Assembly (NCBI GenBank): GCA_945873125.1
Contig: CAMCBV010000004.1
Span: forward strand, 38,001-102,000
Direction of reading: 5' to 3'
Origin: Prosthecobacter debontii
GTDB taxonomy: Bacteria; Verrucomicrobiota; Verrucomicrobiia; Verrucomicrobiales; Akkermansiaceae
Length of the DNA stretch: 64,000 nucleotides
Made by a program: the position numbers and the translations under genes. The notes beneath the pieces are model-generated. The model did not search any database. It worked only from the letters and a program-made list of their open reading frames with translations, and was not told the origin of the DNA. Positions 3,911 to 7,550 of the stretch are shown here, piece by piece (positions within the stretch are counted from its first letter, which is position 1; each line of letters opens with the position of its first letter).

Positions 3911-4828
3911 ATGATGCTAATCCGTCTCGACAAGCTTGAGGACCTGGTCAGGCAGCAAGGGCCCCTCCACTTGGCGTTGGGCGTGTTCGATGGTGTGCAC
4001 AAAGGTCATCAGGTGGTGATCGATCAGGCAGTACGGGCCGCGCGCGCGAGCGGCGGATTGTCGTTTGTCGTGACTTTTTCGCCTCATCCGATTCAGGTGA
4101 TTGCAGCCAACAAAGCTCCGCTTTGCTTGCTCGCGAGCCTGGAAGAAAAGGCGGCATTGATGCATTCCCACGGGGTGGATGGACTCTTGGTGATTCATTT
4201 TGACCAAGATTTCGCATCGCTGGCGGCTGAGGATTTTGTGCGAAAACTCTGCGAGGCGGATGTGGCTTCAATCTCCGTGGGTGAGGATTGGCGCTTTGGA
4301 AACAAGAGGCTGGGGGATGTGGCTCTTCTCAGGAGGATGGCGGTCGAATTCGGGTTTGAGTTGGTGGCGGTTGCGCCTGTGATCTGGGACGAGGAGCGGA
4401 TTAGTAGTAGCCGGATCCGCCAGGCGATAGGTTCAGGAAATTTCAATGCGGTCGAGGCGATGTTAGGTCGTCCCTATGTAATTTCTGGTAAAGTGGTCGA
4501 AGGCCGTAAGCTCGGCAGGACGCTCGGTTTTCCCACAGCAAACCTGCATTTCACAGAAATGCAGCTGCCCAAAGACGGGGTATGGTTGGTCGAGGTAAAT
4601 GGCCAACAGCGAGGTATCGCCAATCTCGGTATGCAACCGACTGTAAATGGTAGCCAGCGCACCCTTGAGGTGCACATTTTCGATTTTTCCGCGGATCTAT
4701 ACGGACACATGCTAAGGATACGGTTCCTGCATTTCATTAGGGAGGAGCGTAAATTTCCCAGTATCGACGCACTGCGGGAACAGATTTCGGCAGATGTTCA
4801 ATTGGCACGAAAAATAGCCCTTGATTAA
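3911..4828 (+). CDS. ribF: Bifunctional riboflavin kinase/FAD synthetase
   Basis: GVFDGVHKGHQVVI, GRKLGRTLGFPTANL, truB-ribF adjacency. Confidence 0.95.
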   Translation: MMLIRLDKLEDLVRQQGPLHLALGVFDGVHKGHQVVIDQAVRAARASGGLSFVVTFSPHPIQVIAANKAPLCLLASLEEKAALMHSHGVDGLLVIHFDQDFASLAAEDFVRKLCEADVASISVGEDWRFGNKRLGDVALLRRMAVEFGFELVAVAPVIWDEERISSSRIRQAIGSGNFNAVEAMLGRPYVISGKVVEGRKLGRTLGFPTANLHFTEMQLPKDGVWLVEVNGQQRGIANLGMQPTVNGSQRTLEVHIFDFSADLYGHMLRIRFLHFIREERKFPSIDALREQISADVQLARKIALD

Positions 4829-4852
4829 ATACTGTTTATATGAACAGTATTT
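4827..4852. promoter_or_regulatory. LexA/SOS-box-like dyad
   Basis: AAATACTGTT-tatatg-AACAGTATTT, 10-bp perfect arms; contains CTGT-N8-ACAG and TGTTT-N4-GAACA. Confidence 0.5.
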
Positions 4853-4855
4853 GTC

Positions 4856-4990
4856 ATGAGCTCACGCGAATATAGGAGATTGAGATGGAAACTGCTGCGA
4901 ATCGAATGGCGAAGAAAAATTTCCATCTGGATGCGAGATTGGCATAAGGTCGAGCAGCACCAAGAAGAGCAGCTTGAATTCAGACTTTAG
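4856..4990 (+). CDS. Small hypothetical protein (44 aa), candidate SOS-regulated, C-terminal QLEFRL
   Basis: ORF absent from supplied track; MSSREYRRLRWKLLRIEWRRKISIWMRDWHKVEQHQEEQLEFRL*; 3 nt after the dyad; no clear SD (possible leaderless). Confidence 0.4.
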   Translation: MSSREYRRLRWKLLRIEWRRKISIWMRDWHKVEQHQEEQLEFRL

Positions 4991-5096
4991 GACCCCCGTC
5001 AAATCTGTGGTTATGATCCTTGAGTTTTTTTAACAATCTGGGATTTTGCGCTTACCCTTTTAAGCTCGGGTGTTTATAGGTTTAAGAATACTTCGC

Positions 5097-7550
5097 ATGC
5101 GATTTCCTTTCATTGTAGATTTTCCGAGTTGTGGCCTTGTGCTCTCAATTTCTTTCGCGCTTTGTTCGATCGGTTTGACTCAGGAAATCAAACCGAGTTC
5201 ACCCCTTGCAGCGCAAGAGTTACAGAGACGCCGGGTGGCAGTCGAAGAGGGACAAATGTTGTTGCTAAAGGGTGACGAGGCCTATTTGGCGGGTCATTTC
5301 AAAGATGCGGTTGATGCTTATGCTGGAGCGACATCAGCCCTGCCTGATTCACCTGCAACCCTCGAACTCAGAAACTCGGCACTGGAGAGATACGCCCAGG
5401 CCTCGGTTGAACATGCCAAGTCATTGGCAAGGAAAGGCAGAATTGAAGAGGCTAAGGCAGCGATTGATGTGGTTTTGGCCAAAGACGTCACTCCCAATCA
5501 TCCAGCGGCCATCGCGGCACGCAACGCCCTTGACGATCCGATTCGAACCAACCCTGCACTCACTGCTGAGCATGCCAAAAATGTGGATCAGGTCAGAAGA
5601 CTGCTTTACATGGCAGATGGCGCCTATGATCTCGGAAAATTTGATGAGGCAAAACAACATTACAACGAAATTTTAAAAATCGATCCTCACAATCATGCTG
5701 CGACTCGGGGATTGGAGCGGGTGGCGAGTGAAAAAACGAACTATTTCCAATCGGCATACAAACAAACCCGTGCTGAGGCTTTGATGGAGTTGGCAGCCAC
5801 TTGGGAATTGCCCTCGGAAACCAGCCTAGTGGTTCCTCCCGCACCCGTAGTAGCTAAGGATACCCAGCAAAGTTCTTACATTCCCCTGGGTAACAAGCTC
5901 AGTCGCATCATCATTCCGAAATTCATTGTTGAAAATGTGACCTTGTTGGAAGCCGTGGATGTATTGAGGGCCAGAACCATGGAGAACGATGTTTTCGAAT
6001 TGGTTCAAGATCTCAAAGGAATCAATATTACGGTGAATCTTGGTGATCCGATGGCTTCTCCGGCCAAACAAATATTGGAAAAGCGATTCGATCTGAAACT
6101 TGCAAATGTTCCGGTTGAATCCATCCTCAAATATATCACAAGCATGACGCAGACCGGTTTTCGGTATGATGATCATGCGGTTACAATCCATCATCGGGGA
6201 GCTGCCGGAGGCGGTTTGATATCCCGTACTTATCGAGTTCCTCCCGATTTTATGGGTAACCTTTCTGCTGGTGCGACAAACAAAACAAAGGATGAAGATA
6301 TTTTCAATGCCAAGCCAGAGGTCAATGGAATGATGGCCCAACGAATGGGGGCTCAGGAAGCTTTAGCTCAACAAGGTGTTTCGTTTGCCGACGGTGCTTC
6401 AGCAACCTACAATCCTTCCAGCAATACCTTGTTGGTCATCAACACGGCAAACAATCACGACATTATTCAACAGATCATTGACACGATCGTGAGCACAGAA
6501 CCGGTCATTGTGTCTGTAAAAGTCACGATGGTGAAAGTTGAAAAGAGCATATTGGAAGAACTCGGGTTTGATTGGATGCTCAATGATTTCGGACTGGGCG
6601 GTGGAAGTGGGCCGGCTCCGAACCGTGGATACCTATCTGGAGGAACCGTGGGCAGCGGAACCATCATCGACGATTTCCCCATTGTGCCGGGCAATCCGAC
6701 CCCACGTAATCCGCTCACCGCCGGTAACCGCAGTGGAGACGCCGCATTTGCAAGGTATGATTTGGATCAGCTTCTGGGTGCAGGGGCGAGCCGTACGGTT
6801 GAGCAATTTGACCGGGGTCCTGGAATTATTGGAGTCAATGGCGTGGTAAACGATACGACTATCGCCATGTTGATGCGGGGATTAGATCAGAAAAAAGCAG
6901 CGGACATTCTCGCCACGCCCTCGGTTACCACTCGCAGCGGTCAAGCAGCCTCCATCACGATGGTCAAGGAGTTCATGTATGCGACAGAATATGACCCGCC
7001 GGAATTGCCTCAAAGTATCGGCACTTTTAACAATCCCGTCTTTGACGATCAGGGTAACCAAATTGGTGTGGATTCGGTTACGGTGACACCCCCGATTATT
7101 CCAGCGTTTCCCAGCTCATTCGAAACTCGTGACATAGGAGTTTTTCTTGAGGTTCTGCCGACAGCTGATGCAAACCGTCAATACATCGATGTGGCGTTAA
7201 AACCGGTCATGACCGATTTCGATGGTTTTGTGAATTACGGCACACCGGTCAATTTTGTTGCCAACGGCACGACCACCGTCCTTGCGGAAAATCCGATTTT
7301 AATGCCGGTATTCAGTGTGAAAAAAGTGGATACCAGTATGGTTATTGCGGACGGAGCGACGGTTGTGGTTGGTGGTTTACTTAAAGAATCTCTCACAACG
7401 GTTCATGACAAAACTCCAATCCTTGGCAATCTTCCGATGGTGGGTAGGCTTTTTCAAAACAATGGTACGAAACACATTTCTACAGCGATATTGTTTTTCG
7501 TGAATGTCGAATTGGTTGATCCAACTGGCAGACCGTATCGCAAGCGCTGA
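5097..7550 (+). CDS. Secretin (type IV pilus/type II-like outer membrane secretin, Amuc_1098-like) with TPR-like N-terminus
   Basis: VSVKVTMVKVEKSILEELGFDW, GGLLKESLTTVHDKTPILGNLPMVGRLFQ, ILFFVNVELVDPTGR; N-terminal repeat region EAKQHYNEILKIDPHNHAA. Confidence 0.85.
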   Translation: MRFPFIVDFPSCGLVLSISFALCSIGLTQEIKPSSPLAAQELQRRRVAVEEGQMLLLKGDEAYLAGHFKDAVDAYAGATSALPDSPATLELRNSALERYAQASVEHAKSLARKGRIEEAKAAIDVVLAKDVTPNHPAAIAARNALDDPIRTNPALTAEHAKNVDQVRRLLYMADGAYDLGKFDEAKQHYNEILKIDPHNHAATRGLERVASEKTNYFQSAYKQTRAEALMELAATWELPSETSLVVPPAPVVAKDTQQSSYIPLGNKLSRIIIPKFIVENVTLLEAVDVLRARTMENDVFELVQDLKGINITVNLGDPMASPAKQILEKRFDLKLANVPVESILKYITSMTQTGFRYDDHAVTIHHRGAAGGGLISRTYRVPPDFMGNLSAGATNKTKDEDIFNAKPEVNGMMAQRMGAQEALAQQGVSFADGASATYNPSSNTLLVINTANNHDIIQQIIDTIVSTEPVIVSVKVTMVKVEKSILEELGFDWMLNDFGLGGGSGPAPNRGYLSGGTVGSGTIIDDFPIVPGNPTPRNPLTAGNRSGDAAFARYDLDQLLGAGASRTVEQFDRGPGIIGVNGVVNDTTIAMLMRGLDQKKAADILATPSVTTRSGQAASITMVKEFMYATEYDPPELPQSIGTFNNPVFDDQGNQIGVDSVTVTPPIIPAFPSSFETRDIGVFLEVLPTADANRQYIDVALKPVMTDFDGFVNYGTPVNFVANGTTTVLAENPILMPVFSVKKVDTSMVIADGATVVVGGLLKESLTTVHDKTPILGNLPMVGRLFQNNGTKHISTAILFFVNVELVDPTGRPYRKR

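Follow-up and report, generated by a model that had tools for sequence, protein, structure and literature searches.

Can a bacterial SOS response include a gene that encodes only a short helix and a docking motif for the replication machinery? The question is raised by a 44-codon open reading frame in Prosthecobacter debontii, located within the 64,000-nucleotide stretch of DNA analyzed here (the window). The original prediction took the inverted repeat in front of this frame for a LexA box and the last six residues of its product, QLEFRL, for a motif that binds the beta sliding clamp, and it proposed an SOS-induced microprotein acting as a replication brake or polymerase-exchange factor. Comparative genomics supports LexA control and translation of the microprotein; we infer clamp docking from the motif, and a brake or polymerase-exchange outcome is speculative. 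On balance, we consider it probable that the locus is a LexA-repressed, single-gene SOS unit whose peptide would dock on the beta sliding clamp and act as a competitor or in polymerase access.

Putative operator and promoter of the microprotein gene

The open reading frame occupies positions 4856 to 4990 of the forward strand and has the sequence and QLEFRL ending first described for it. A 26-bp dyad at positions 4827 to 4852, AAATACTGTT-tatatg-AACAGTATTT, stops 3 nt short of the ATG at 4856, and the two 10-bp arms of this putative LexA operator are indeed perfectly matched. Allowing up to three mismatches, the dyad pattern has no other match in the window and none in 100 shuffles. The core of the dyad (positions 4833 to 4846, TGTTTATATGAACA) is, as had been claimed, one mismatch away from TGTTC-N4-GAACA, the Verrucomicrobia-type LexA motif. 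Perfect 10-bp-arm dyads stand at the same position before the homologous frame in the closest relatives, with both arms changed in step. Matched two-arm changes relative to the window give AGATACTGTTTAAATGAACAGTATCT at locus L006 and GATAGTGTTCATTGGAACACTATC, an exact TGTTC-N4-GAACA, at locus L007; among the genomes, G015 and G021 carry perfect 10-bp-arm dyads with matched changes at this place.

A -35-like element, TTGATT (positions 4821 to 4826, forward strand), lies 35 nt 5' of the ATG and shares bases with the ribF stop codon; it matches the consensus weakly, and by that measure the window promoter is weak. A possible -10 element, CAGTAT (positions 4845 to 4850, forward strand), is placed from spacing only: it follows the -35-like element by 18 nt and leaves 5 nt to the ATG. 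A consensus scan of the window did not pick it up. In most family members, the box is flanked by the -35 element on one side and the start codon on the other. For 33 of 49 members with starts as first assigned, the best TTGACA-like hexamer has its first base 34 to 37 nt ahead of the start codon, and three further members reach a spacing of 35 nt if the next in-frame Met is taken. This spacing would put transcription initiation on the start codon or only a few nucleotides away, suggesting that the microprotein mRNA is probably leaderless. The operator of several subclades includes the start codon itself (ATGAACA), so that the first residues are fixed as Met-Asn.

The genome of the window (G000; 2.88 Mb in 83 contigs) encodes a LexA with both DNA-binding and S24 peptidase domains, and perfect TGTTC-N4-GAACA boxes precede its lexA, recA, and Y-family polymerase genes. 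A single box nevertheless proves little, since the whole genome has 58 boxes with at most one mismatch versus 54 in a reversed control; conservation is what counts. The operator of the microprotein gene is conserved with the gene across species, and most family members match the motif with zero or one mismatch.

Perfect boxes also precede several other genes in these genomes. They are found before a tyrosine integrase and an ORF6N-domain protein (L036, L046, G000), before a macro-domain-like protein in G015 (L041; by resemblance, not by profile), and, in same-genus genomes with a second DnaE, 5' of an imuA-imuB-dnaE2-type operon (L202-L206, L210, L212, L213). Another lies 18 nt before the gene for a 153-aa Whirly-domain protein (PF08536, E 2.8e-11) in both G000 and G015 (L042, G000:C46:3807; L043, G015:C80). 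The Whirly fold is best known from single-strand DNA-binding proteins of plant organelles, and a candidate LexA-controlled bacterial protein of this type deserves separate attention.

Co-occurrence of box and microprotein upstream of a pilus secretin gene

The original prediction proposed aligning the ribF 3' flank in related genomes. The constant neighbor instead lies downstream: an Amuc_1098-family type IV pilus secretin gene (positions 5097 to 7550, forward strand; NF042912, 885.6 bits), which we place outside the SOS unit. The same secretin gene follows in 13 of 14 homologous regions, and the upstream gene varies between ribF and unrelated genes. G015 retains ribF, box, and open reading frame without an adjacent secretin. 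The secretin gene has a conserved promoter-like element of its own, GGGATTTTGCGCTTACCC (positions 5040 to 5057, forward strand), which is distinct from the microprotein unit. This element (TTTCCCGGATTTTNNGCTTAC...TATA) remains at L114, L124, L126, and L134, where box and open reading frame are both lost.

We used the secretin as an anchor for locus comparison, as the first six-row alignment of the microprotein was too variable to seed a search of genome contigs. Eighty secretin loci were compared, 78 of them with enough upstream DNA, and related loci among them are not independent. Those closest to the locus in the window come from Akkermansiaceae, Luteolibacter, Haloferula, Rubritalea, and Roseibacillus records, which puts the genome of the window with Akkermansiaceae. 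Homologs of the microprotein keep its box-to-start layout both in same-genus genomes and, 5' of the secretin, in genera farther away. A first pass sought upstream small open reading frames ending in Q[LMI]x[LFMI], blind to any box; at loci without a LexA-like box, it returned only the ribF tail or short unrelated frames.

A box with at most one mismatch lies within 650 nt upstream of the secretin at 49 of the 80 loci. A motif-bearing frame accompanies it at 47 of these 49 by script, or at 48 when L141 (Rubritalea profundi) is counted, whose 58-aa frame has its QMEFSF farther from the end. None of the 23 loci that lack a box (best site with at least three mismatches) has such a frame. The predicted co-occurrence of the box with a C-terminal QLxFxL in relatives is therefore strongly borne out. 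Frames at boxed loci span 41 to 58 aa and usually carry Q[LMF]x[LF] near the C terminus; when two mismatches are allowed in the box, 49 of the 78 loci combine it with a motif frame of 41 to 54 aa that starts 7 or 21 to 26 nt after the box begins.

Near-perfect boxes are about 70-fold enriched upstream of the secretin across the 80 loci: 71 sites with at most one mismatch occur in 50,851 nt of upstream windows versus 13 in 654,114 nt from other parts of these loci. The corresponding Poisson figure is extreme but ignores shared descent. The tail motif itself is rare, being present in 37 of 1,656 small open reading frames (38 to 56 aa) at these loci, all but one of them family members; for the control frames the count is 1 of about 1,620.

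Two variants of the arrangement were also observed. L116 keeps the box and a related N terminus and has lost the clamp-like tail, and is probably a decayed copy. At L093, L096, L117, L123, and others, two overlapping LexA-like boxes 15 to 17 nt apart precede the microprotein gene.

A variable, predicted cationic helix with a conserved tail

Searches with the 44-aa peptide matched same-genus open reading frames at 66% (G015), 48% (G021), and 49% (G004) identity, and weaker matches in G005 and G032 proved real on inspection. A six-member profile recovered 14 full-length homologs and a divergent one in G026. A 32-member profile found matches at E <= 1e-3, one copy each, in 65 of 262 genomes of the family and in 50 of 74 of the same genus; both counts are lower bounds because this profile misses the Roseibacillus form, and many of the searched genomes are metagenome assemblies. 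An order-wide sample of 387 genomes gave no match outside Akkermansiaceae, the family of the window, and the gene family has so far been seen only in this family of Verrucomicrobiota. No match was obtained in roughly one-third of same-genus genomes or in most of the family's other genera, a patchiness indicating that the gene is dispensable. For genomes without the locus (Luteolibacter marinus, Haloferula, and others), we found no convincing copy elsewhere, with a search of limited sensitivity that detected the Rubritalea marina copy and missed the Roseibacillus and Rubritalea profundi forms. The 32 members match no described family in Pfam or NCBIfam, and a single member has a marginal match in PHROGs (E 0.049).

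Judged by its conservation, the microprotein is a real, translated gene family. The pN/pS ratio is 0.22 to 0.30 among the window, G015, and G094-type copies, indicating purifying selection, and is mostly 0.04 to 0.5 within eight subclades, with few pairs up to 0.69. Mean column identity across 32 members is only 31%, and no position other than Met1 and the Q of the tail motif is at least 90% conserved. Members are strongly cationic, with a mean net charge of +8.8, and AlphaFold2 predicts a single helix over residues 3 to 43, confident in the body and less so in the tail.

Besides Met1, strong conservation in the family is confined to the C-terminal tail. In the window, this tail reads QLEFRL (positions 4970 to 4987, forward strand) and would be a motif of the sliding-clamp type. 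Over 51 members, the Q is invariant (51/51) and is followed by L, F, or M, then mostly by E or D, then by F or L and a variable position; W (31), F (8), or L (4) occupies position 6. Subclade tails read QLEFRW, QLEFPW plus four residues, or QLRLPFD, and the Roseibacillus type offers only an internal QFDLLD as a less certain candidate. Protein bodies diverge, the Q motif persists, and selection acts on the peptide tail.

Proposed clamp docking, rival explanations, and known systems

Clamp clients are typical SOS products, and when an SOS-type gene ends in a conserved Q-[LM]-x-[FL]-x-[WFL], a clamp motif is the best interpretation, although F4 and W6 are unusual for one. The window's genome encodes an ordinary DnaN clamp that can be aligned to solved clamps and ends in YVLMPMRV, and a QSSLFD sequence occurs in the DnaE of this genome. 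Bacterial clamp clients use a QL(S/D)LF-type motif that is probably tolerant of much variation, and the F at position 4 and W at position 6 of the microprotein depart from this consensus (PMC9690074). The co-occurrence of box and tail, together with use of the Verrucomicrobia-type motif before lexA, recA, and a polymerase gene, makes an SOS-controlled clamp-docking microprotein the best-supported reading; the SOS part of the original prediction is supported by this evidence, and docking and braking extend beyond it as interpretation. ImuB sequences of relatives, read for a comparable motif, gave no clear result, and in the accessible literature no clamp microprotein under SOS control turned up. 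A role as a DnaE2 accessory was considered and dropped: G000 has one DnaE match, and a second DnaE occurs in 16 of 51 carriers versus 14 of 23 non-carriers, a difference confounded with genome size.

The regulatory and conservation evidence would be identical if the tail of a LexA-controlled microprotein bound a partner other than the clamp, such as another repair, division, or replication protein, and the F4 and W6 residues are atypical for clamp clients. We regard such a partner as unlikely, given that the QLRLPF, QLHLPF, and QLQLPF tails of some subclades closely approach classic clamp motifs and that clamp clients are common among SOS products. The constancy of the downstream secretin could also point to control of the secretin by a leader peptide or promoter element, which would link DNA damage to type IV pili. 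This explanation has little to recommend it: the promoter-like element of the secretin survives loss of the frame and box, G015 has both without an adjacent secretin, and selection acts on the peptide tail.

A membrane-active stress peptide like TisB, the other option of the original prediction, would account for a small, cationic, Trp/Arg-rich product under SOS-type control. We consider it highly improbable, since members have a single predicted basic helix and a mean net charge of +8.8, and conservation is concentrated in the short Q motif rather than in a hydrophobic membrane segment. The overlap of the -35-like element beside the dyad with the ribF stop codon would fit a chance open reading frame behind a ribF terminator hairpin, the outcome that had been named as refuting the prediction. 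Next to no credence is left for it: there is no terminator-like site, box and frame persist where ribF is absent, the frame is under purifying selection, and the promoter spacing is conserved.

Under the clamp-docking reading, LexA would occupy the dyad, which separates the -35 element from the start codon, and keep the small gene off. DNA damage and LexA self-cleavage would then release a leaderless transcript starting at or within a few nucleotides of the ATG, from which a cationic helical peptide of about 44 aa would be made. Its short C-terminal motif would dock in the hydrophobic pocket of the DnaN sliding clamp, and the basic helix may add a contact with DNA or another protein. With the pocket occupied, the replicative polymerase or other users of the clamp would most likely face temporary competition, and for the duration of SOS either replication could be slowed or repair or bypass could gain access. 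It is this expected competition with polymerases, by a pocket-occupying peptide made only in SOS, that suggests a brake or exchange factor.

LexA control and a clamp motif are combined in Pol IV, UmuC, and ImuB, and the motif of Pol IV is C-terminal; the microprotein differs from all three in lacking a catalytic or folded domain, with only a short helix and a tail. TisB, SidA, YneA, and SosA are short, lineage-specific, LexA-controlled proteins that act on membranes or the division machinery. The microprotein resembles them in size, in lineage specificity, and in its LexA-type control, and we know of no such small SOS effector with a clamp-type tail as its conserved element. Knowledge of how bacteria slow or reprogram the fork in the SOS response comes mostly from a small number of model organisms. 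If our reading is correct, fork control during SOS could be built from one peptide motif, and a gene of about 45 residues in which a LexA-type operator and a clamp-type tail are fixed would extend the thinly studied SOS regulon of Verrucomicrobiota, in carriers that include many relatives of the gut bacterium Akkermansia.

Clamp-targeting toxins offer another comparison: SocB of Caulobacter, which uses a clamp-binding motif, and RipA of Streptococcus pneumoniae (PMC9690074, PMC12795458). By description, not by sequence, they resemble the microprotein as dedicated proteins that act on the hydrophobic pocket of the clamp. They are, however, members of toxin-antitoxin systems, whereas the microprotein is under a LexA-type operator; a search for an adjacent antitoxin gene across the homologous regions found none conserved, with a variable gene upstream and the pilus secretin downstream. 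Archaeal small PCNA-binding inhibitors such as TIP (PMC4929162) likewise act on a sliding clamp and are set apart by their domain of life, their clamp, and their motif. The microprotein may represent, as we tentatively suggest, a dedicated SOS clamp-occupancy peptide, leaderless and LexA-repressed, in which a tail for docking on the sliding clamp is the main feature under selection; it would provide Akkermansiaceae with a replication checkpoint based on occupying the clamp pocket, not on a division block or an added polymerase.
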